A stretch of DNA of 64,000 bases from Candidatus Peribacteria bacterium (GTDB lineage Bacteria > Patescibacteriota > Gracilibacteria > UBA1369 > 2-02-FULL-48-14). Of the stretch, positions 42,339-54,391 are shown in pieces. A program made the translations under genes and the position numbers. The stretch covers positions 25,215-89,214 of the forward strand of contig CALRGE010000006.1 in assembly GCA_943357175.1 (NCBI GenBank), read 5' to 3'. How positions within the stretch are numbered: position 1 is the stretch's first letter; each line of letters opens with the position of its first letter. Below the pieces are notes generated by a model that was not told the DNA's origin, did no database searches, and worked only from the letters and a program-made list of their open reading frames with translations.

Positions 42339-42375
42339 ATTGGCTTGGTTAAAGTTTAGTGATTTTTTATTTCAG

Positions 42376-42906
42376 CTAACGTACGTGCCTGAACCGGTTG
42401 AGCTCTGTTGTGTGATGTTGCGAAAAATCCACCAGGTAATTTTTAACTGCTTCAATATCAATTTTTTGATGTTCGCCATTAAGTATTTTTTTGTATTCCA
42501 TTAAATCTTTTGGATTCATTACGTAAACTTCTATTTCAAATATTGTTTTGATTTGTGCCGTTTCAAATTGTGCAGGATAGCTTTCCCATGTTTTATTTTT
42601 TTCGTTATAAATTTTTGTTTTATATGCACCACTAATATCAATCATTTGTCCTTCATAATTTAAAACTATTAAATCAAGATCCCATTTTTCATCTTTTAAC
42701 CTATCTGGCCCAAAAGTAATATATTTTTCAATATCTGGGAGTATAGTTTTAAATTTCTCTTCGGGAATATCCAGATCGATATCGTTTACTGAACGTTTTG
42801 CGCCATAAATATGAGCAGCAAAACCTCCTGCAATTTGAAACGGCACATTATGCTTTTTGAGGATATTTACAATCCATTTGAGAGCCTTTTCTAATTTTGA
42901 TTCCAT
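42376..42906 (-). CDS. Nucleotidyltransferase-family cassette protein
   Basis: HNVPFQIAGGFAAHIYGAKRSVNDIDLDI, NTP_transf-type GG..aahiyG..R...DiDl motif. Confidence 0.75.
   Translation of the reverse strand: MESKLEKALKWIVNILKKHNVPFQIAGGFAAHIYGAKRSVNDIDLDIPEEKFKTILPDIEKYITFGPDRLKDEKWDLDLIVLNYEGQMIDISGAYKTKIYNEKNKTWESYPAQFETAQIKTIFEIEVYVMNPKDLMEYKKILNGEHQKIDIEAVKNYLVDFSQHHTTELNRFRHVR
42378..42409 (-). repeat. attC-like site A (short)
   Basis: gctAACgtacgtgcctgaaccggttgagctctGTTgtgtgatg. Confidence 0.5.
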
Positions 42907-42939
42907 GATTTAGATATAAGATTTTTCGCAAGAATCGAG

Positions 42940-42963
42940 CCAGATATGCGCTGTTAAGTGATG
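42940..42963 (-). repeat. attC-like site B (right half only recognisable)
   Basis: ccagatatgcgctGTTaagtgatg; left half degraded. Confidence 0.4.
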
Positions 42964-42977
42964 GACTTTGGCCGTTC

Positions 42978-43157
42978 CTAACACATGCAGTTGAAGCTAT
43001 TCGCATTATTTTTGGTAAGGCCCCATGGATCGCCATTGGATTTTTTGCCGTTCCAAGTTGTACCGTCTTTAGCAGCTTCAACAGCTGACTCACTTGGTAA
43101 ACCTTGAGCACCAGCCTGCCTGAGCTCGACGAGTGCGCCTTGAAGTTTTGCGTTCAT
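42978..43157 (-). CDS. Small cassette protein, unknown
   Basis: MNAKLQGALVELRQAGAQGLPSESAVEAAKDGTTWNGKKSNGDPWGLTKNNANSFNCMC; start chosen inside track ORF. Confidence 0.5.
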   Translation of the reverse strand: MNAKLQGALVELRQAGAQGLPSESAVEAAKDGTTWNGKKSNGDPWGLTKNNANSFNCMC

Positions 43158-43213
43158 ATAATTATAGGTTAATGGATAATTTATTATATCAGAAAGTCCA
43201 AAATATTTCATTT

Positions 43214-43256
43214 AACGTTCGTACGTTTGCGAAGTGCGAGCTGCATATGCGCTGTT
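43214..43256 (-). repeat. attC-like site C (short)
   Basis: tttAACgttcgtacgtttgcgaagtgcgagctgcatatgcgctGTTaagtgatg. Confidence 0.6.
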
Positions 43257-43301
43257 AAGTGATGTATCCAAACAAAATAATCGCAAGTATTACAAAGTAA
43301 T

Positions 43302-43700
43302 TCATATATTAAGTTTTGTTGCTATGAAATACGCTATTGTAGATACTGATGCTGCAAGTGTTGCTCCCCAAGCTAAGTCAACAAAAGTTACAAGTAGCGG
43401 CCAATCTTTAACTGTTGCTAAATTTGTCAAATCATAGGTTGCGTACGTAATAAACCCGAATAAGGCACCAAGAAGAACTGCGTGTATCCAGGACCCTTTT
43501 TCAAGTGCAGGTGAAATAACGAAAACCACCAGACCTGCTATAAATACGAGATAAAAAATAATTGCTGCATACCAATTAACATCAGATTTCATTAGAAAAC
43601 CAATTTGTTTGGCATAAAAATTCTTTGCCACAATTCCAAGCCAAACCATGTCGATGGCAAAAAATACTGGCAGTGCAATAAGATAAAGTTTCCAGAACAT
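43302..43700 (-). CDS. DUF2177-like membrane protein
   Basis: MFWKLYLIALPVFFAIDMVWLGIVAKNFYAKQIG...YDLTNLATVKDWP. Confidence 0.85.
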   Translation of the reverse strand: MFWKLYLIALPVFFAIDMVWLGIVAKNFYAKQIGFLMKSDVNWYAAIIFYLVFIAGLVVFVISPALEKGSWIHAVLLGALFGFITYATYDLTNLATVKDWPLLVTFVDLAWGATLAASVSTIAYFIATKLNI

Positions 43701-43701
43701 A

Positions 43702-44097
43702 TTATTTGTTTAAGTAAGTAATAGTAAGTTGCAAAACTGTGGCAAAAGATCCCCATAGCAAATAGGGCAGATTTGCATATACCACCCAGCGCATATGTGG
43801 CCAAATTGCAACTAATCCCCAGATGAGGGTTCCAAGAACTAGGATAATATCTATAGACGCTAAAACGTTATTTTTTAGTCCAAACTGAATTGGTGTAAAT
43901 GCAAAATTGAAAATTAGGTTTAAAGCAAATGGCAAAGCTACTATCCAAGGTATTTGCTTGGTGAAAGCCTTGTAAAATACTGTTCCATATGAGGCTGCAA
44001 TCAAAATGTACAGCACTGACCAAACAGGACCAAATAGCCATGCGGGTGGAGACCAAAAAGGTTTTACTAATTGTGTGTACCAAGTTGCTGTAGGCAT
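43702..44097 (-). CDS. TspO/MBR family protein
   Basis: WYTQLVKPFWSPPAWLFGPVWSVLYILIAASYG; Trp/Pro-rich 5-TM pattern. Confidence 0.88.
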   Translation of the reverse strand: MPTATWYTQLVKPFWSPPAWLFGPVWSVLYILIAASYGTVFYKAFTKQIPWIVALPFALNLIFNFAFTPIQFGLKNNVLASIDIILVLGTLIWGLVAIWPHMRWVVYANLPYLLWGSFATVLQLTITYLNK

Positions 44098-44165
44098 ATT
44101 TTTGAGGTTAAAGTGGGCAATTGTTCTTACCAATGGCGGTGAAAGTGCTGAGAATTTTTTGTATT

Positions 44166-44534
44166 TTAGTGTTCATAGCTTGGGAAAAACTTTTTTAGTC
44201 GTATCTCTGAAACTATAAGAACAAACAGGCCGACCATCAAAGGAATAATGAAAAGAGGAGACCAGTATTCTGTTATTGGATTGAGTGCTGGACCAGTCAT
44301 GACATACTTGAAGGCTGAAACATCATCAATGAATAGGCCTGCACCTATGCCGAAGAAGATGTGTCCATATTTTGCTCGTCTGAATATAAGTGCAAGAATC
44401 ATTAATAGAAGTCCATAGTAAAAATGATATGACTGGTCGTGGAATATAAATTGCAGCTCCGGCCTGTTTGCGGCTATAGCAACAAAAATTCTCATCACGA
44501 TTATTGTAGCAATAGCTGAGCTTGTTATTTTCAT
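44166..44534 (-). CDS. Multi-TM membrane protein
   Basis: 122 aa with 3-4 TM segments; shares cassette with the TspO and DUF2177 genes. Confidence 0.7.
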   Translation of the reverse strand: MKITSSAIATIIVMRIFVAIAANRPELQFIFHDQSYHFYYGLLLMILALIFRRAKYGHIFFGIGAGLFIDDVSAFKYVMTGPALNPITEYWSPLFIIPLMVGLFVLIVSEIRLKKFFPSYEH

Positions 44535-44549
44535 AAAAATATTTCACTT

Positions 44550-44585
44550 AAGGTCCGGGTATTGGCGAACTGCATATGCGCTGTT
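44550..44585 (-). repeat. attC-like site D (short, degenerate)
   Basis: cacttAAGgtccgggtattggcgaactgcatatgcgctGTTacgc. Confidence 0.45.
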
Positions 44586-44603
44586 ACGCAATTGGCAGAA
44601 AAA

Positions 44604-44859
44604 TTAAACCACATAAAATTGTCTGCTTATAAAAACAAAATATATGGCATAGATAATTGTTGCTATGGCAGCGTACCACTTTAAAATATATGTTTTTTTT
44701 GATTATAAAAAATACTATTAATAGAGCTATTAACGGAAGTGTTACTGATAAAATCCCAGAGTACTCTGGTTTTTGGTAGCCTTCGCTCCAAAACATTCTT
44801 GGGACCCTATCAAAAAATGTATTTTGGAGTTCAGTCCTGTCGTTTGCTGAGAGTGCCAT
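44604..44859 (-). pseudogene. Small membrane protein with apparent frameshift at an 8-A run
   Basis: MALSANDRTELQNTFFDRVPRMFWSEGYQKPEYSGILSVTLPLIALLIVFFIIKK; removing one A from the run (44693-44700) continues as TYILKWYAAIATIIYAIYFVFISRQFYVV*. Confidence 0.5.
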
Positions 44860-44903
44860 ATTTTAGGTGCTTAAATGTTTTAAAATTTTTCTGACTTTCT
44901 TCT

Positions 44904-45020
44904 AACGTCCGTGAATAACCGGAGTTTTTTGTGGCGGTATAATATGGAGTGACGTACCGCCGCCAAACTTGTGTGAACGAATGAAGCGTAGCGGGATGAG
45001 TGAACCAGTTATTCATTGTT
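44904..45020 (-). repeat. attC-like site E (long)
   Basis: AACgtccGTGAATAACcgg...ccaGTTATTCATtGTT; outer and inner stems complementary. Confidence 0.8.
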
Positions 45021-45042
45021 AGACGAGAATTCTGCTCCACCT

Positions 45043-45468
45043 TTACTCGACAAGTTTCTTTATGCCATTAAGTACCATATTCCAGCTACTTTCTGAGTGC
45101 TCCCGTGCCTGCTCATTAGCAAACCCTTTTTGGGACACTTTCAAAGTAACATCACCATCTACCCCACTCACTTCATAGGTGACTAAAGAATAGTTTTCCT
45201 CTTTATTTTCTAAACCGGAGAAGCTACTTAAATATGTGTATTGCAATAGTTTTTCAGGTTCAAATTGAACAATCTCTCCTTTATCCTGATATTCTTTACC
45301 TTCATAGCTTCCCTGAAAAACTATGCTACTGCCAACTTGCCAGTTAGTAACAAGTTGTGTCCCAAAAAGGTACTGTTTCACCATTTCAGGATTTGTTAAT
45401 GCTTCCCACACTTTACTCACGGGAGCACTCACTTGAACGGATTTTTGTACGATAAGGTCTTTATTCAT
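45043..45468 (-). CDS. SRPBCC/AHSA1 domain cassette protein
   Basis: KSVQVSAPVSKVWEALTNPEMVKQYLFGTQLVTNWQVGSSIVFQG. Confidence 0.88.
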   Translation of the reverse strand: MNKDLIVQKSVQVSAPVSKVWEALTNPEMVKQYLFGTQLVTNWQVGSSIVFQGSYEGKEYQDKGEIVQFEPEKLLQYTYLSSFSGLENKEENYSLVTYEVSGVDGDVTLKVSQKGFANEQAREHSESSWNMVLNGIKKLVE

Positions 45469-45539
45469 ATGAATTAGGTTAGTTAATGCTAATGTATATA
45501 AATTTAATTATTCGGTAAAGGTGGGGCAGAATTTCGGCT

Positions 45540-45580
45540 AATGTTCGCGCATCATCTGAAGTTCTCATCCCGTTCGTGTT
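45540..45580 (-). repeat. attC-like site F (degenerate)
   Basis: ggctAATgttcgcgcatcatctgaagttc...cgttcgtGTTaaat. Confidence 0.4.
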
Positions 45581-46055
45581 AAATATCGCATTGGTAGTAT
45601 ATAGTTTCTTGTCCATATATTTCACCTCGCTTACTTTCCTTAAAACCACGCGACTCATATAACTTTTGGGCGACAATTTGTTTTGTCGATGTATCCAAAA
45701 ACAATTTTTTGTAGCCTAACTCCTTTGCCTTTTCGATAAGCTTATCTAAGATCAAGCTGCCGATTCCTTTGCCCTGAAGCTCGTGCTTAACTCTCATTCT
45801 TTTTATTTCGGCAGTTGCCTCATCTACTTTTCTCAAGGCGCCCATACCAACAAGCTTATCGTTAATTATGGCTACAAAAAATTCTCCATCATTATCGATA
45901 TATTCTTCTCTGATTCGCTTGAGGTCTTGGTCAAGCTGTTCTCTGGCTTTTGGATCATCGATAAAACTCTCAGTCTGTTTTAAGCCCTCAAGATGAAGGT
46001 TGTAGGTTGCCTCTTTATCTTTTTCCTCAAATTGTCGCAGTCTAATATTTTCCAT
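45579..46055 (-). CDS. GNAT acetyltransferase cassette protein
   Basis: MENIRLRQFEEKDKEATYNLHLEGL...MRVKHELQGKGIGSLILDKLIEKAKELGYKKLFLDTS..A..LYESRGF. Confidence 0.9.
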   Translation of the reverse strand: MENIRLRQFEEKDKEATYNLHLEGLKQTESFIDDPKAREQLDQDLKRIREEYIDNDGEFFVAIINDKLVGMGALRKVDEATAEIKRMRVKHELQGKGIGSLILDKLIEKAKELGYKKLFLDTSTKQIVAQKLYESRGFKESKRGEIYGQETIYYQCDI

Positions 46056-46087
46056 GTTATTGCACCAAGGAACAAAAAATTTCAGAT

Positions 46088-46164
46088 AACGTTCCGGAAT
46101 AGCCGATGTTTTGTGGCGGTACAATGTTTGGGCGAGGCAGCAGCCGAGCTGCATATGCGCTGTT
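46088..46164 (-). repeat. attC-like site G (chimeric halves)
   Basis: gatAACgttccggaatagccgatgttttgtggcgg...gagctgcatatgcgctGTTagctgatg; left and right outer arms not complementary. Confidence 0.6.
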
Positions 46165-46183
46165 AGCTGATGTTGGGCTGTTT

Positions 46184-46714
46184 TTATTGTTTACAAATCC
46201 CTGGCAATTCGCCGGAATTTGTAAACGTTATTGACTCACTAACGTATTCAGAATCTCTACATGCTCCTGTTTTGTCGGCGGCGGGATCTGAAGTTGAAAC
46301 TACTACTGTTAATTCCTCACTGCATGGTTCAGCTAAAGCTAACTCAAAATTCCCATTTGCATCTACCATTGCGGCACCGCCGCTTGCATATGAATTGCTG
46401 GTGATACATGACATTTCGTCTTTTGGATAATTAACGTATGCCCAAATTTCAGAGTTTGCCTCGGCGGTGCCTTTGATGGTGACACCGTCAACTATCGAAC
46501 CATCAGCAGGATAAGCGATGACTGGCCTGTTGCTTGAAACTGTAGGTTGTGTCGTTGGCAATGTTTCAGTTGTCGGTTGAGAAATTTCAACTTCTTCTAC
46601 TGGTGTTACTTCAGCGGAATTTTGAGTTTGCCACCAGTAAACACCGCCGCCGATAATAACGGCTGTGATTACTATAGTCAGGACGATTGTCCAGGGATTT
46701 GTTTTGTACTCCAT
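46184..46714 (-). CDS. TM-anchored cassette protein with Ig-like ectodomain
   Basis: N-terminal TM TIVLTIVITAVIIGGGVYWWQ; ectodomain RPVIAYPADGSIVDGVTIKGTAEANSEIWAYV. Confidence 0.75.
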   Translation of the reverse strand: MEYKTNPWTIVLTIVITAVIIGGGVYWWQTQNSAEVTPVEEVEISQPTTETLPTTQPTVSSNRPVIAYPADGSIVDGVTIKGTAEANSEIWAYVNYPKDEMSCITSNSYASGGAAMVDANGNFELALAEPCSEELTVVVSTSDPAADKTGACRDSEYVSESITFTNSGELPGICKQ

Positions 46715-46782
46715 ATTGATTAGGGTTAATTAATAAATGAATTTTACGTTAAACGACTGAATAAAAACAGCCAATTTCAGCT

Positions 46783-46900
46783 AACGTCCGGGTATAGGCG
46801 ATGTTGTCTGGCGGTATAATATATCGCGAAGCAATCGACCGCTAGACAATATGGGTGAAGCGACGACTAAAAGGAGGAGTGGAACCGCCTATACCCTGTT
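46783..46900 (-). repeat. attC-like site H (long)
   Basis: AACgtccGGGTATAGGCGatgTTGTCTgGCGGT...ACCGCtAGACAA...CGCCTATACCCtGTT; two nested stems. Confidence 0.85.
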
Positions 46901-46918
46901 GTACGATGAAACGAAAAT

Positions 46919-47221
46919 TTACTTTTCCTCGATTTCTACTTCTAGATGACCTTGTTTTTTTGCGAAATGAATTACTGTTTTTTCTCTAAATACACTCCAA
47001 TATGCATCAACTGTGTTTGAATAAGGTGAATCGTAAGGCGGGCAATCATTGCCTTCTACTGTTGCAACAAAATCTTCGTCTTTCATCTTATCGTGATAAT
47101 AATAAATAGGTTTCTTTTTATGATCATGATTCGTAAAAAGGTCACAGCTTATTTGGTATGTTTTGCCCGCCGTTTCAATGGACTTCATTTCGCCTGGTTT
47201 TAGTTTGAATTTTTGAGCCAT
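46919..47221 (-). CDS. Cassette protein, unknown
   Basis: MAQKFKLKPGEMKSIETAGKTYQISCDLFTNHDHKKKPIYYYHDKM...; start chosen outside site I. Confidence 0.65.
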   Translation of the reverse strand: MAQKFKLKPGEMKSIETAGKTYQISCDLFTNHDHKKKPIYYYHDKMKDEDFVATVEGNDCPPYDSPYSNTVDAYWSVFREKTVIHFAKKQGHLEVEIEEK

Positions 47222-47243
47222 ATAAATTTTCGTTTTTTCGTAC

Positions 47244-47359
47244 AACGTCGAGTTTAAACGAAGTTTTGCGGTGGTAAAATAGCACGGAGTGCTTACCACT
47301 GTAAAACTTGGGTGAACGAACGGAGCATAGCGAAGTGTGTGAACCGTTTAAACTCTGTT
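47244..47359 (-). repeat. attC-like site I (long)
   Basis: AACgtcGAGTTTAAACGaag...CCGTTTAAACTCtGTT with inner stem TTTTGCGGTGGTAA/TTACCACTGTAAAA. Confidence 0.85.
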
Positions 47360-47465
47360 ATGTGCTGTTTGCAAGGTTTACACATAATTTATTTTAAAAT
47401 CTTATTCCGATTTCATTTCTTAAACTATTTATATTGCCTAAATTTACCGACAGCAAATGGCATAT

Positions 47466-47571
47466 AACGTCCGTGAATAACTGAAGTTTGGTAAGGCTAT
47501 AATATCGCGAAGCGGTAGCCTTGCCAAACTTGGGAGAACGAACGCAGTGAGTGAACCAGTTATTCACTGTT
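47466..47571 (-). repeat. attC-like site J (long; identical to site O)
   Basis: AACgtcCGTGAATAACTGaagTTTGGTAAGGCTa...tAGCCTTGCCAAActt...CAGTTATTCACtGTT. Confidence 0.88.
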
Positions 47572-47587
47572 AGCCGTTGTGCCAAAT

Positions 47588-47935
47588 TTACTCATTTGGG
47601 AACTCTTCACCTGTTTTTATATATCTCCATGTGAATTTAGCCCACATACCCGCCCATTTCTTTGCGTCATCGATTGTTGGCGTTGATTCTGGATAATCAC
47701 CGATGCAAACCATTTTCCCTCCCCGTGAGTTATCACGAAAATGGGTTATGCTGGTTTTAGCATCGCGATCACCATATGTTGGCTGTTCAACGATATCGAT
47801 TTCAAAGTAGGGTTGCCCATTTTCTGAAGTACATGGAACGAGATTGAATTTGAATGTTGCCTCTCCATCTTCGGTCACATATTCGAATGCTTCAACTTTT
47901 GGATTTTCGTCGGGGAGGGAAATGGTTTCTGACAT
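47588..47935 (-). CDS. Cassette protein, unknown (copy 1 of duplicated cassette)
   Basis: MSETISLPDENPKVEAFEYVTEDGEATFKFNLVPCTSENGQPYFEIDIVEQP; paralogue of 52065-52412. Confidence 0.8.
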   Translation of the reverse strand: MSETISLPDENPKVEAFEYVTEDGEATFKFNLVPCTSENGQPYFEIDIVEQPTYGDRDAKTSITHFRDNSRGGKMVCIGDYPESTPTIDDAKKWAGMWAKFTWRYIKTGEEFPNE

Positions 47936-47970
47936 GTTTTTGGGCGGGTTATAAATTTGGCATTTCGGCT

Positions 47971-48068
47971 AACGTTCGCGCATAAACGAAGATGACCAGC
48001 GGTAGCATATCCCGAAGGGTTACCGCTGGTCAATTTGTGCGAACGAAGTGAGCCGTTTATGCGCTGTT
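47971..48068 (-). repeat. attC-like site K (long; homologous to site P)
   Basis: AACgttcGCGCATAAACgaagaTGACCAGCGGTA...TACCGCTGGTCA...GTTTATGCGCtGTT. Confidence 0.88.
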
Positions 48069-48102
48069 AGCGGACAGTTGGGCTGTTTTTATAGCGATTG
48101 CA

Positions 48103-48684
48103 TTATCCGCAATTTTTACAATCTGAACCGTATATCATTTCTGCCCATTTTCTAAGACCCACCATAACATCAACTGAGACTGATCCACTTTTGTACCAAT
48201 GACTGCAATCGCTGTCTGGCACTTCCTCGTCACTGCATATAAAATCACTACCCTTTAGGTATGTTACCAAATCACTACTTGGATTATCTGTGAATATTAC
48301 CACATCACTGAATGTTTTTGAACCAAAGAGTTCATTCAAGCGGTCTTCACCGCAAGCAGCGGCGGTAAACAAGCCAGCGATTTGATGATAATCATCAGCT
48401 GTGGTTTTGTATTCAACTGCGACTGGATAAATCGTACGAGTATAACCGATATCCAACGATACTTTAGATGGTTCTTGGGTACATGCTGAACTGTTAGAGT
48501 CGAGTGAAATGAGCTGACTTGTTTCCTCTTTATCTTCACTTTCTTCAACAGTAGCTGGTTCAGTTTTTAGTTCTTCGATTGCTTTACTTAGAGTATTAAA
48601 TTGTGATTGTTGCCAAATATACATGCCACCGCCAACAACCGCTGCTGTGATAACTATCGATAAGAGAATGTGCCAGACTTTCAT
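48103..48684 (-). CDS. TM-anchored cassette protein, unknown ectodomain
   Basis: N-terminal TM HILLSIVITAAVVGGGMYIWQ similar to 46184-46714; different ectodomain. Confidence 0.75.
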   Translation of the reverse strand: MKVWHILLSIVITAAVVGGGMYIWQQSQFNTLSKAIEELKTEPATVEESEDKEETSQLISLDSNSSACTQEPSKVSLDIGYTRTIYPVAVEYKTTADDYHQIAGLFTAAACGEDRLNELFGSKTFSDVVIFTDNPSSDLVTYLKGSDFICSDEEVPDSDCSHWYKSGSVSVDVMVGLRKWAEMIYGSDCKNCG

Positions 48685-48757
48685 ATTTTTTCAGTTAATG
48701 TTAATTGCGATTGGATAATACTATTTTCGTGAGAATAAAAACAGCCCAATTTCCGCT

Positions 48758-48847
48758 AACGTTCGCGTATATCTGATGTTGCGACCGCAGGGAGCAATAT
48801 GGGTGAGCATTTGCCGTTAGGCAAGCGCGAACCAGATATACGCTGTT
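48758..48847 (-). repeat. attC-like site L
   Basis: AACgttcGCGTATATCTGatgttgcgaccg...CCAGATATACGCtGTT. Confidence 0.85.
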
Positions 48848-48972
48848 AGCTGATGTATTCATTTTCTTTTCCGACAATAGTCGGTTGTTTTTAAAATTTT
48901 CAAATTTCTTTTTCCGTTTTGGGCGAAGGGCAGAGGGGAATTAAAGGGGTGAATGCCCGTAGCCCAAAACAC

Positions 48973-49971
48973 CTAATCAAATAAGTGGTTATCGCTTATT
49001 GTGATTTCTTTATCATTCTCGAACACTTTTTTCTCTTTAACGTCAATAACTATGACACCATATGTTTTTTTTGCATGACAGTTTGGGCAGAGAACCCACA
49101 AATTATTTAACTTCTCATTTCCACCGTCAGCTTTTTCTACAATATGGTCTACGTGTATTATCCATCCCTGCTTTCCGTTTCTTCTTTTATATTCGCACTT
49201 AAAACCACAAACCTGGCATGAATAGTTTTCTATCTTAGCTACACGTCTTTTTTGAATTTGATTCTCTTTCCTTACTTTAATCTCACCATATTTGACTGCA
49301 TGAGAAGCAGAATCACTATTATCAAAATCTTTTGCTTGGTTTAAAAGCTGTTCTTTAGTAAGAATTGATAACTTTTCATCTAAATTTTCAGCTAATTTTC
49401 TTTCTAAAACACTCTCGTCCGAAATTTTTGTACGTGAAAAAAAATCTTGATTCTGATTAAGAATTAAATCTTCGTATATTTCATTTATTCCTGAAGCGCT
49501 TCCATTCACAGGGAATTGTGGAGTTTCCTGATTTAACTTTTGTGATTCTTTATTTAATTTAGATATTTCAATACCATTTTGAGTAAGAATCTCTATTTCT
49601 GCAATAATTTCTTCGGGCTCCTTGTTTTGTATTGCTTTGTCGAGATTAATATTACTGATATCTGAGAATAAATACACCTCTTTAAGGGGTACAACATATG
49701 GCCAATAATTTTCATTGTCTCTTGTTTCTTGTAGCCACCATTTTTCATCTTTAACGGTCAATGGCGCACCTACATAACCAAACCCTATAACACAGGATTT
49801 TGTTTTGTTTGAAAACTCAGATTTTTTTGTAGAATGAAAAATCACAGTATCACCGGGTTGTATTTTATTCTGCCACAAACCTTTATTGTTTTCGTTTAAA
49901 GCCCAATTGTTTAATCCTAGAGCTGTTATCCAATTTTCTGGTGGACCTGTAAAACGCCATATATTATTCAT
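48973..49971 (-). CDS. EVE/PUA-like plus HNH endonuclease (candidate modification-dependent restriction enzyme)
   Basis: N-terminal MNNIWRFTGPPENWITALGLNNWALNENNKGLWQNKIQPGDTVIFHS...VIGFGYVG EVE-like; C-terminal HNH CQVCGFKC...WIIHVDHIVEKADGGNEKLNNLWVLCPNCHAKK. Confidence 0.8.
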   Translation of the reverse strand: MNNIWRFTGPPENWITALGLNNWALNENNKGLWQNKIQPGDTVIFHSTKKSEFSNKTKSCVIGFGYVGAPLTVKDEKWWLQETRDNENYWPYVVPLKEVYLFSDISNINLDKAIQNKEPEEIIAEIEILTQNGIEISKLNKESQKLNQETPQFPVNGSASGINEIYEDLILNQNQDFFSRTKISDESVLERKLAENLDEKLSILTKEQLLNQAKDFDNSDSASHAVKYGEIKVRKENQIQKRRVAKIENYSCQVCGFKCEYKRRNGKQGWIIHVDHIVEKADGGNEKLNNLWVLCPNCHAKKTYGVIVIDVKEKKVFENDKEITISDNHLFD

Positions 49972-49972
49972 A

Positions 49973-50320
49973 TTAAAGTTTGTTATATTTTGTATGTTTT
50001 CCTTTAGATTTTTCAACCGGGTATTTCTTGTCGTTTGAATCAATTTTTTTATCTAGTGCATCTATAATATCAATATCTAAATCATGACTCATGAGTAACA
50101 CCCAATATAGAACGTCGGCTAGCTCCTCTCCAATTTCACTTTTATGAGACTTGATATATTCATTTATCTCCGCACCATTCTTCCATTGGAAATGCTCAAC
50201 AACCTCACTTGCCTCCAGGGAAAGTGATAACGCGACATCTTTTGGATTGTGAAATTGCTTCCAATCTCTAGCGTCGCGAAATTCTATTATTTTTTTTATC
50301 AATTCATTTAGTGATTTCAT
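49973..50320 (-). CDS. MazG-like nucleotide pyrophosphohydrolase
   Basis: MKSLNELIKKIIEFRDARDWKQFHNPKDVALSLSLEASEVVEHFQW...EIGEELADVLYWVLLMSHDLDID. Confidence 0.9.
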   Translation of the reverse strand: MKSLNELIKKIIEFRDARDWKQFHNPKDVALSLSLEASEVVEHFQWKNGAEINEYIKSHKSEIGEELADVLYWVLLMSHDLDIDIIDALDKKIDSNDKKYPVEKSKGKHTKYNKL

Positions 50321-50477
50321 AGGTTTATTGTATTCGTTTTCCCCTTATAAATAAATGTTTTCGGAGCGGAGCGGAGAAAACTCCTTATATTCCCCTCTAA
50401 AAATAAAGAAAAAGAAATTTGAAAATTTTTTAAAACAATTGGGCGGTAGCCCAGAAAAGAAAAGGGATATTTCAGCT

Positions 50478-50591
50478 AACGTTCCAGAATATGCGATGTT
50501 TGCTGGTGATATAATAGCGAACGGAGTGAGCCATCACCAGCAAATATTGGTGTAGCGAGGTGCAGCCGAGCGAAACCGCATATTTTGTGTT
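50478..50591 (-). repeat. attC-like site M (long)
   Basis: AACgttcCAGAATATGCGatgTTTGCTGGTGAT...CATCACCAGCAAA...CGCATATTTTGtGTT. Confidence 0.85.
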
Positions 50592-50660
50592 ATATGTGCC
50601 GAAGGTCGAGCCCGAGTGCAACGTCCCGAAGGGCGGGCGAGCGTAATAAAAGCCGCCGCT

Positions 50661-50921
50661 TTATTTTTGTTTTTTTAATTGTTGAACTAAAGCTCGCAAT
50701 TGGTCAGCTGTTTGAATTTCATCACCATGCTCAAGTAAATGATCGTGCAATGCATCAAGTAGCTCTCCGTTGCCAGCGACTTGTTCGCTGACCAAAATTT
50801 CTCTCCATTGCTCATCAGTAATATCTCTGCCAGCCATTGCTCCAAGAGCATTGATATTGCCCTCGAGATCTTGGTGAGAAATTAGTGCGAGCTTTAGTTC
50901 TAATTTTGGACCGTTTTCCAT
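50661..50921 (-). CDS. Cassette protein, unknown (86 aa)
   Basis: MENGPKLELKLALISHQDLEGNINALGAMAGRDITDEQWREILVSEQ... Confidence 0.7.
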   Translation of the reverse strand: MENGPKLELKLALISHQDLEGNINALGAMAGRDITDEQWREILVSEQVAGNGELLDALHDHLLEHGDEIQTADQLRALVQQLKKQK

Positions 50922-50967
50922 ATGATTTGTTAGTTAATGGTTAAAGGCGGCTTTTATTATGACATAT

Positions 50968-51076
50968 AACGTTCGCGCCTAACCGAAGTTTTTCGTGGCG
51001 GTATAATTTGGAGCGGAGCGACCCACCGCCACAAAAAATTTGGGAGAGCCCGCAGGCGAACCGGTTAGGCGCTGTT
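50968..51076 (-). repeat. attC-like site N (long)
   Basis: AACgttcGCGCCTAACCGaag...CCGGTTAGGCGCtGTT; inner TTTcGTGGCGGT/ACCGCCACaAAA. Confidence 0.88.
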
Positions 51077-51100
51077 AGCTGATGTTTGGCCCCCGTCCCC

Positions 51101-51853
51101 TTAAGCTGCTTTTGCTTGTTGATTTATTCCTCCCGAAAAGACTTGTTGAAATGCTGCTTGAGTATTTGGATCAAAGGCGACAATCTTTATTTCGTCGAAG
51201 GCCGCAAGTTCAAGTACTACGTCATAAAGACCTTTTTGAATAGCACGTGCACTTTCCATTGGATTCACGCCGCCAGCTCCAGCTCCGAGTGCTGGTATTG
51301 ATAAGGTTTTGAATCCTTTGGATTTTGCTTCAATCACAATATTGCGCGTTGCCCTTCTGATAGCTTCTGGTGTTGCCTTACCGCCCCATTCCATGACCGC
51401 GGCGTGAATGATTTGTGGACCAATTTTTCCACCTGTTGTCGTTGCTGCTTTGCCCATCTCAAGTGGCTGTTTCCCACCTTTGGTAATAGCGTCACATGCT
51501 ATTTGAACTTGCGGCCCGCCTTTCGTTCTAATTGCACCCGCAACACCACCACCTAATTTAAGTTGAGTATTTGCGGCGTTTACAATTGCGTCAGTCTTTT
51601 GATTAGTAATATCTCCTTGGGCTATGTTACAACGACCATTCATCAAAGCCGCAAATAGCTTGTCTTTAACTTTGTTCACCATTGGCTCAACTTTGTTTAC
51701 GTCAAAGAGCCTTTGATCCAAAAGCCCTCTTACTTTAGCTATTGCACTTCTTGTTTCTGCCACTACATTATTTGGCAGGCGCTTTGAACGTTCAGCCTGA
51801 GTAAGGTTTTTATCGAGGTAGTCTACGCATTTTGTGAAGGCTTCTTTACACAT
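51101..51853 (-). CDS. Macro-domain (ADP-ribose-binding/hydrolase) cassette protein
   Basis: NIAQGDITNQKTDAIVNAANTQLKLGGGVAGAIRTKGG...LSIPALGAGAGGVNP. Confidence 0.9.
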   Translation of the reverse strand: MCKEAFTKCVDYLDKNLTQAERSKRLPNNVVAETRSAIAKVRGLLDQRLFDVNKVEPMVNKVKDKLFAALMNGRCNIAQGDITNQKTDAIVNAANTQLKLGGGVAGAIRTKGGPQVQIACDAITKGGKQPLEMGKAATTTGGKIGPQIIHAAVMEWGGKATPEAIRRATRNIVIEAKSKGFKTLSIPALGAGAGGVNPMESARAIQKGLYDVVLELAAFDEIKIVAFDPNTQAAFQQVFSGGINQQAKAA

Positions 51854-51942
51854 ATGGCTTAATTAGTGTTAGGGAGGAATAGTCTCATATTTTTACTGTC
51901 CTGTCAACTCTTTTGCCATGATCAGGGGGCCAAATTTCAGCT

Positions 51943-52048
51943 AACGTCCGTGAATAACTGAAGTTTGGTAAGGCTATAATATCGCGAAGCGGTAGCCTTG
52001 CCAAACTTGGGAGAACGAACGCAGTGAGTGAACCAGTTATTCACTGTT
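51943..52048 (-). repeat. attC-like site O (long; identical to site J)
   Basis: Same 106-bp AAC..GTT module as 47466-47571. Confidence 0.88.
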
Positions 52049-52064
52049 AGCCGTTGTGCCAAAT

Positions 52065-52412
52065 TTACTCATTTGGAAATTCCTTACCTGTTTTTATATA
52101 CCTCCATGTAAATTTAGCCCACATACCCGCCCACTTCTTTGCATCTTCAATTGTTGGCGTTGATTCTGGATAATCACCGATACAAACCATTTTCCCTCCC
52201 CGTGAGTTACCACGAAAATGGGTTATGCTGGTTTTTGCATCTCGATCTCCATATTCAGGTTGTTCAACAATATCAATTTCAAAGTATGGTTTCCCATTTT
52301 CGGAAGTAGATGGAACAAGATTGAATTTGAATGTTGCTTCTCCATCTTCAGTAATATATTCAAATGGCTCAATCTGTGGATTTTCGTCGGGGAGGGAAAT
52401 GGTTTCTGACAT
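52065..52412 (-). CDS. Cassette protein, unknown (copy 2 of duplicated cassette)
   Basis: MSETISLPDENPQIEPFEYITEDGEATFKFNLVPSTSENGKPYFEIDIVEQP. Confidence 0.8.
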   Translation of the reverse strand: MSETISLPDENPQIEPFEYITEDGEATFKFNLVPSTSENGKPYFEIDIVEQPEYGDRDAKTSITHFRGNSRGGKMVCIGDYPESTPTIEDAKKWAGMWAKFTWRYIKTGKEFPNE

Positions 52413-52447
52413 ATTGCTAGGCGGGTTATAAATTTGGCATTTCGGCT

Positions 52448-52544
52448 AACGTCCCGCATAAACGAAGATGACCAGCGGTAGAATATCCCGAAGGGTTACC
52501 GCTGGTCAATTTATGCGAACGAAGTGAGCCGTTTATGCGCTGTT
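52448..52544 (-). repeat. attC-like site P (long; homologous to site K)
   Basis: AACgtccCGCATAAACgaagaTGACCAGCGGTA...TACCGCTGGTCA...GTTTATGCGctGTT. Confidence 0.88.
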
Positions 52545-52562
52545 GTACGATGAAATGAAAAA

Positions 52563-53139: not shown

Positions 53140-53982
53140 TTGTGTCATTTAATTGGAAGTATGCACAAGATGGACCACCCAGGGATACAAAAATTGGTGA
53201 GGGAGCTGAGGCTGAGGAACTATAGTTATAGGACTATTCAAGCCTATAAAGATCAGGTTTGGGCTTACTTTTTGTTTTGTGGGCAGGATTGGGAGAAGAG
53301 TAATAGGCAGAAAGTTGAGGATTTTATTCTGAAGAGGCGGGATGATGGATTGTCTCCACAAACAATAAATTTGAGTGTGCAGGCTCTGCAGTTTTTCTAT
53401 AGACATGTGCAGATGCAGCATTTTGAGAAGATTCGGGCTATGAAAAAACAGCAGAAATTGCCGGTGGTTTTAAGTAGAGAAGAGATTTTTGAGATTTTAG
53501 GGAAGATTGAAAATGAAAAACATAGAGCAATTTTGGCACTGAGTTATGGTGCGGGCCTTCGAGTTAGTGAGGTTTTAAAGTTAAGAATTTGTGATTTGGA
53601 TTTTCAGGAGGGAATTGTGAAAATTCGAAATGGAAAAGGCGGTAAAGATAGAATTAGTTTGCTTCCGGCAGTATTGAAAGATGAGTTGAAAGCAATGTGT
53701 GTTAGGCGCGGTGAAACTCGATATCTTTTTGAAAGTATTCGAGTTGGTAAATTGACAACGCGAACAGCACAGAAAGTTTTTGAGGTGGCTTTGAAGAAAA
53801 GTAGTATACGAAAAGAAGCTTCATTTCACTCTTTGCGGCATAGTTTTGCTACTCATTTACTCGAGAATGGTGTGAACTTGAGGTGTATTCAGGAGTTGCT
53901 TGGCCACAATGATGTTCGTACAACAGAAAGATACACTCATGTTTCTAAAAGTCTGATTCAGACGATTAAAAGTCCGCTATAG
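53140..53982 (+). CDS. Tyrosine recombinase, candidate integron-like integrase
   Basis: GAGLRVSEVLKLRICDLDF, FHSLRHSFATHLLENGVNLRCIQELLGHNDVRTTERYTHVSKSLIQTIKSPL: R..H-x-x-R..H..Y catalytic set. Start could be TTG 53140 or ATG 53161/53170. Confidence 0.95.
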   Translation: MCHLIGSMHKMDHPGIQKLVRELRLRNYSYRTIQAYKDQVWAYFLFCGQDWEKSNRQKVEDFILKRRDDGLSPQTINLSVQALQFFYRHVQMQHFEKIRAMKKQQKLPVVLSREEIFEILGKIENEKHRAILALSYGAGLRVSEVLKLRICDLDFQEGIVKIRNGKGGKDRISLLPAVLKDELKAMCVRRGETRYLFESIRVGKLTTRTAQKVFEVALKKSSIRKEASFHSLRHSFATHLLENGVNLRCIQELLGHNDVRTTERYTHVSKSLIQTIKSPL

Positions 53983-54177
53983 TTTAATTCCTGCATCTTT
54001 TAAAATTGCATGAAGCGTTCCCTTTGGAATATCTTTACTATGTATTGGTACAACAACTTTTTTATTTTCGTTATCATTTTTAAATATAGCGTGACTTCCA
54101 CTTTGACGTGCAAATACAAAACCATGTTGCCTTAGCAACTTTATGAGTTTGCTAGGAGTCATATTATATTTAGACAT
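53977..54177 (-). CDS. hicA: HicA-type toxin
   Basis: MTPSKLIKLLRQHGFVFARQSGSHAIFKNDNENKKVVVPIHSKDIPKGTLHAILKDAGI. Confidence 0.92.
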   Translation of the reverse strand: MSKYNMTPSKLIKLLRQHGFVFARQSGSHAIFKNDNENKKVVVPIHSKDIPKGTLHAILKDAGIKL

Positions 54178-54391
54178 GACTTGGCTTCTTTTTATTACGG
54201 ACTTCTACAACTGTAATTACTGCCTTCATAGACTGATTCTCGATCTCATCTTCGAGATAAAGCATGACAGCATCCTTTAGATTTACTAATGCTTCTTCCT
54301 TAGTTTGTCCAAAAGTATGACAACCCTCTAATTGTGGGCAAAAAGCATGCCATTTTTTCCCGTCCTTTTCTAACTTAAATGTGATTGGCAT
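54170..54391 (-). CDS. hicB: HicB-type antitoxin
   Basis: KWHAFCPQLEGCHTFGQTKEEALVNLKDAVMLYLEDEIE; overlaps hicA. Confidence 0.9.
   Translation of the reverse strand: MPITFKLEKDGKKWHAFCPQLEGCHTFGQTKEEALVNLKDAVMLYLEDEIENQSMKAVITVVEVRNKKKPSHV

Follow-up and report, generated by a model that had tools for sequence, protein, structure and literature searches.

A gene for a MazG-type nucleotide pyrophosphohydrolase and a gene for a putative EVE-HNH endonuclease share a single cassette in the window (the whole 64,000-nucleotide stretch of Candidatus Peribacteria DNA that was analysed, carried by a patescibacterial genome of 1.23 Mb), and MazG genes of the same subfamily recur beside exchangeable nuclease genes elsewhere. 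With a probability of roughly 55%, the pair is a modification-dependent (type IV-like) restriction module joined to a dedicated nucleotide-pool enzyme. A wider reading, which falls a little short of even odds, is that bacteria and archaea have a class of two-gene defence systems all built around this conserved MazG subfamily. The second gene would be an exchangeable nuclease (EVE-HNH, EVE-PD-(D/E)XK, GIY-YIG-Schlafen helicase or PD-(D/E)XK-Schlafen helicase, and perhaps also McrB_N-HNH or an actinobacterial PUA-like HNH protein), and nucleotide hydrolysis would serve restriction in general as its second arm instead of being house-cleaning. MazG-type enzymes have been termed house-cleaning enzymes. 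The original prediction of a mobile module directed against modified phage DNA is partly supported overall, and the observation from which it started is confirmed.

Table 1. Features of the MazG/EVE-HNH cassette and its surrounding array (positions in the window)
Feature	Position	Strand	Size or basis
MazG-type NTP pyrophosphohydrolase, first gene of pair	49973-50320	-	115 aa
EVE-HNH protein, second gene of pair	48973-49971	-	332 aa
EVE/PUA-like domain, residues ~1-147	49531-49971	-	profile matches and Foldseek
HNH motif region, residues 249-303 (CxxC...HVDH...NLW..CPNCH)	49063-49227	-	Pfam HNH 252-303
Integron cassette holding MazG and EVE-HNH only	48755-50475	-	~1.7 kb; attC-like copy spacing 1720 bp
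attC-like site closing the cassette, 3' side of EVE-HNH	48753-48852	+	covariance model 72.3 bits, E 1.4e-14
attC-like site upstream of MazG, belonging to the preceding cassette	50473-50596	+	long hairpin; covariance model 94.6 bits, E 6.7e-20
attC-like array (~42.4-52.6 kb)	42373-52549		11 strong sites
Tyrosine recombinase of the array, integron-integrase-like	53140-53982	+	NCBIfam XerA_Arch/integron integrase

The two genes (Table 1) meet at a TAA-T-ATG junction, and the near coupling that had been reported there (TAATATG) is exact in its coordinates. A longer TTG start is available for EVE-HNH at 50043 and is unlikely to be used, because the closest full-length relative, at locus L040, begins at the matching residue (MRNTYRF). 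No further plausible ORF is found in the cassette.

Both domains expected in the second protein are borne out. The HNH domain at its C-terminus matches Pfam with E 6e-11 (42.7 bits against a cut-off of 21.4), McrA (5zmm) aligns to residues 270-307, and the metal and zinc residues (VDH, N and CxxC/CPNCH) are intact in the window protein and kept in L040, a full-length EVE-HNH homologue from Saccharibacteria with 46-47% identity. The EVE/PUA-like assignment of the N-terminus draws on modest profile matches and a low-confidence model. As a single sequence the domain scores E 0.015, below the Pfam cut-off, and matches NCBIfam PRK00809 at 2.4e-6; a 13-sequence EVE profile (A4) matches UPF0310 MJECL36 (2p5d) at 5.4e-4 and PH1033 (1wmm) at 0.017, and ordinary bacterial EVE domains weakly (hhalign). 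The best Foldseek matches are EVE structures (2hd9 and 1wmm with probability 1.00, 2p5d with 0.98), followed by YTH domains; the AlphaFold models are poor, with pLDDT 56 for the one behind the EVE assignment and 60 for the other, and the fold matches therefore count as supporting only. A phmmer search of the PDB with EVE-HNH (E up to 10) brought up McrA and TagI among others and no VcaM4I entry; divergence could hide VcaM4I from such a search. The second gene is filed as EVE-HNH by architecture and is putative with respect to the VcaM4I group. VcaM4I-type EVE-HNH endonucleases (PMC7897488) likewise consist of an N-terminal EVE/PUA-like domain, a linker and a C-terminal HNH domain, VcaM4I having 309 aa against the 332 aa of the window protein; in contrast to the window, that paper makes no mention of a MazG partner.

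The first protein matches Pfam MazG-like PF12643 (E 3.4e-16) and Pfam MazG (5e-05), and belongs to the MazG-like fold family, with a metal site of the EExxE...ExxD type. Residues E36, E39, E66 and D69, together with Trp20 and Trp46, are invariant in 14 MazG proteins, the window's included, and likewise in a 15-row alignment. Because a pyrophosphatase (4qgp, 1.7e-21) and dCTP pyrophosphatase 1/RS21-C6 (6sqw, 1.6e-17) are its nearest matches of known structure, the sequence is placed in the iMazG/dCTP-pyrophosphatase branch; the pyrophosphohydrolase that had been predicted stands, but not its alarmone-hydrolysing variant. Human DCTPP1, a dCTP pyrophosphatase, acts on 5-methyl-dCTP (PMC4491611, PMC7162842), and by analogy dCTP and 5-substituted dCTP are the substrates expected for the window MazG. 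It has in common with iMazG and DCTPP1 (RS21-C6) the MazG-like fold family and the metal-binding acidic residues, and both Trp residues equivalent to W47 and W73 of DCTPP1 are present; it is this conservation, of Trp20 and Trp46, that supports the predicted substrate. It differs in having Trp at the position of Tyr102 and Ile at that of His38, and in that its gene adjoins a nuclease gene.

The genome collection was scanned with an alignment of three EVE domains, a search in which MazG played no part, and 15 loci besides the window were recovered. A single-protein scan of the genome contigs had found no relative, whereas the alignment did; viral contigs and phages yielded none. A MazG gene lies directly upstream in 14 of the 15 loci, which come from Patescibacteria, Elusimicrobia, Omnitrophica and Firestonebacteria; among these 14, L036 has a RadC gene between the two and L041 a broken EVE gene. 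L040 is the only locus of the 15 without an adjoining MazG, and its genome has one elsewhere. The EVE partner domain in 13 loci is PD-(D/E)XK-like, with a conserved VDLFA...EVKS motif, weak Hjc-like Pfam matches and fold matches that include BspD6I, Hjc and McrC. Among the 13 intact EVE-PD-(D/E)XK pairs the genes overlap by 4 nt in eight and by 1 nt in one, are 2-3 nt apart in three, and have RadC between them in L036. HNH occurs as the partner domain in the window and L040 only, and no further EVE-HNH member was found in 195 genomes of L040's class. On a plasmid of the haloarchaeon Halosegnis marinus, a full-length EVE-PD-(D/E)XK homologue (blastp ~1e-21) overlaps with its 3' end the 3' end of a convergent MazG gene. 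Thus co-occurrence across genomes, the refutation test set beforehand, went in favour of the predicted linkage, but the commoner EVE fusion is with PD-(D/E)XK and not with HNH.

Several of the EVE-MazG pairs have defence-type neighbours, namely a C5 methylase, an SRA-HNH protein or a Schlafen helicase. SRA-HNH genes lie near MazG-nuclease pairs at L031:5148-5843 (Pfam HNH and SAD_SRA) and L131:273-1010 (by eye), and modification-dependent enzymes appear to cluster there. RadC (JAB domain) recurs as a third gene beside MazG, at L027, L033 and L036 by Pfam and at L054 by eye. On haloarchaeal plasmids (L081, L082, L088), the window EVE domain matches the N-terminal parts of McrB-like AAA ATPases, each followed by a second gene.

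When 380 Patescibacteria genomes were searched from the MazG side, 23 close homologues (E at most 1e-40) were found, 17 of them with a nuclease gene directly downstream. The partner is a PD-(D/E)XK-Schlafen-group-3 helicase in nine cases, a GIY-YIG-Schlafen-group-3 helicase in five, EVE-PD-(D/E)XK in two and EVE-HNH in one; an AAA ATPase (OLD-like, by eye) follows one homologue, and five have no obvious partner. Schlafen helicases were assigned by Pfam and the remainder by blastp to those, the PD-(D/E)XK label of the nine being a motif read by eye; these Schlafen-type partners match the PADLOC Nhi and AbiO models. On plasmids, McrB_N-HNH/MazG/DUF2075 form a run in Priestia, MazG is paired with DUF2075 in Halalkalicoccus, and MazG adjoins HNH-type proteins of 330-333 aa in Nocardiopsis and Streptomyces. 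These actinobacterial partners (L103, L106), PUA-like by eye, were not counted as EVE members, their profile comparing only weakly with this EVE family (hhalign probability 25%).

Such diversity bears on the alternative of MazG as a partner of DNA-attacking nucleases in general, unlinked to modified bases, with EVE-HNH as one of several interchangeable effectors. MazG would then hydrolyse dNTPs in infection or regulate the amount of a nucleotide by which the nuclease is gated. That 14 of the 23 close MazG genes precede Schlafen helicases and only 3 precede EVE-nucleases speaks for it, as do the Halalkalicoccus and Priestia plasmids. The predicted tie of MazG to a reader of modified bases is accordingly not specific, and MazG may have a job unrelated to base modification, since the Schlafen-type helicase-nucleases, which have no known base reader, are the commoner partners. 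However, EVE loci almost always have MazG, the McrB_N-HNH partner is itself type IV-like, so that a link to modified DNA may exist, and the window MazG is closest to enzymes for dCTP and 5-methyl-dCTP; the general-partner alternative is the main rival, though held to be unlikely.

The pairing does not merely reflect shared inheritance. Across 13 pairs, the pairwise identities of MazG show no correlation with those of the EVE-nuclease (Mantel r 0.005, p 0.43), which led to rejection of simple co-descent. On the MazG tree, 9 changes of the EVE-partner label are required, and well-supported branches force at least 4 of these. On these grounds the pairing has probably been re-made repeatedly, the partners re-assorting yet staying adjacent. 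The nuclease domain is also swapped (HNH versus PD-(D/E)XK) while EVE and MazG persist. The nearest relative of the window MazG is that of L035 (79%), partnered by EVE-PD-(D/E)XK, whereas the nearest relative of the window EVE-HNH is the unpaired L040, which suggests that MazG was conserved and the nuclease gene next to it exchanged.

Another alternative takes MazG for an ordinary house-cleaning gene lying by chance beside the HNH protein in an integron cassette, the two having separate jobs. It is in keeping with the five close MazG homologues that have no nuclease-like neighbour and with a MazG-subtype cassette in a Vibrio integron array (Robinson 2007, as cited in PMC3856429). With a MazG-like gene in 59 of 145 genomes, of about 1000 genes each, adjacency to EVE by chance would be of the order of 0.1% per locus, and the pairing, seen in 14 of the 15 loci that were fetched independently, exceeds this. 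Such recurrence, which spans several phyla, extends to an archaeon and comes with overlaps of 4 nt and re-assorted partners, largely refutes the chance explanation and leaves it very improbable. A toxin-antitoxin-like arrangement, in which MazG would be the antidote to a toxic EVE-nuclease by binding it or by clearing an arming nucleotide, fits the small upstream gene, the overlapping reading frames, the strict adjacency and the toxicity of the isolated VcaM4I HNH domain to E. coli (PMC7897488), but is the least probable account, since the haloarchaeal plasmid MazG is convergent and not co-transcribed (poor for an antitoxin), the invariant metal-binding residues point to catalysis rather than mere binding, and L040 persists without an adjoining MazG.

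The favoured reading, a modification-dependent restriction module, would give the two proteins the following inferred roles in defence. By analogy with VcaM4I, the EVE domain would recognise a modified base, most likely a modified cytosine, in DNA entering the cell, and this DNA would be cut by the HNH domain. The coupled MazG would hydrolyse deoxynucleotide triphosphates, 5-substituted dCTP most likely among them, and thereby either bar modified nucleotides from the host's own DNA, so that the nuclease spares it, or deplete the (modified) precursors of the phage. Together the two proteins could exclude modified cytosine at both the DNA level and the precursor level, or could combine a nuclease with self-protection. 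A search of the host's own genome found no C5-cytosine methylase, and a nuclease for modified cytosine would therefore not be self-toxic; this is compatible with the predicted 5mC/5hmC-specific cleavage. The C5-cytosine methylase genes that adjoin two EVE-PD-(D/E)XK loci (L032, L035) are awkward and count against plain 5mC targeting. The lack of an adjoining MazG at L040, the only full-length EVE-HNH relative, counts against the paired module.

EVE-HNH proteins, EVE-PD-(D/E)XK proteins and integron MazG cassettes are each already known. EVE-PD-(D/E)XK proteins, described as a class of putative type IV enzymes (PMC7641849), have, L040 apart, the EVE domains closest to that of the window, which has HNH instead; the main text of that survey makes no mention of a MazG linkage. 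The same survey reports homologues of MutT, another kind of pyrophosphohydrolase, adjoining SauUSI homologues, and these loci resemble the window in setting a nucleotide pyrophosphohydrolase beside a modification-dependent enzyme, but differ in the fold family (MutT/Nudix instead of MazG) and in the nuclease. Nhi/AbiO-like Schlafen-group helicases commonly have the same MazG clade directly upstream, but lack an EVE domain and are distinct from the window's gene. A literature search whose coverage left out most subscription journals, and which is accordingly weak evidence, found no description of a consistent MazG-nuclease pairing, nor of MazG with "EVE domain" or with DUF2075. MazG has been listed as a predicted, unvalidated defence domain (PMC13092281), and that prediction gains concrete partners from a MazG-nuclease pair that recurs and re-assorts across domains of life. 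The pair also raises the question of whether nucleotide hydrolysis keeps the host safe from a modification-dependent nuclease of its own or starves the phage.

The predicted mobility of the pair is supported for the window only. Here the cassette ORFs are bounded by attC-like sites, in an array that ends by the recombinase; ten of the 11 strong sites, including the two that flank the pair, formed the training set of the covariance model, and the one at 47239-47364 was found independently. The recombinase is without the IntI-specific additional domain, its alignment to IntI4 (2a3v) skipping residues 181-244. Within the same order, attC-like sites occur in 63 of 89 genomes and an integrase homologue in 47 of 89, the latter often no more than ~3 kb away from attC and sharing its contig and strand (e.g. 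G217:C15, G604:C22, G644:C6, G310:C1). Among 16 sources the attC model matches the window only, and the EVE/MazG relatives have no attC of the same type; integron carriage as a general property of the pair was rejected on this ground.

Elsewhere in the array, a 300-nt cassette segment that includes its attC-like site is duplicated (47454-47753 and 51931-52230, 95% identical), and the 115-aa ORFs of the two copies (47588-47935 and 52065-52412) are nearly identical. The cassette at 51101-51853 encodes a macro-domain protein (Pfam Macro 1e-25, with a weak DarG-like match). Beside the integrase, at 53977-54391, are two small overlapping ORFs that by eye resemble a HicA/HicB toxin-antitoxin pair.
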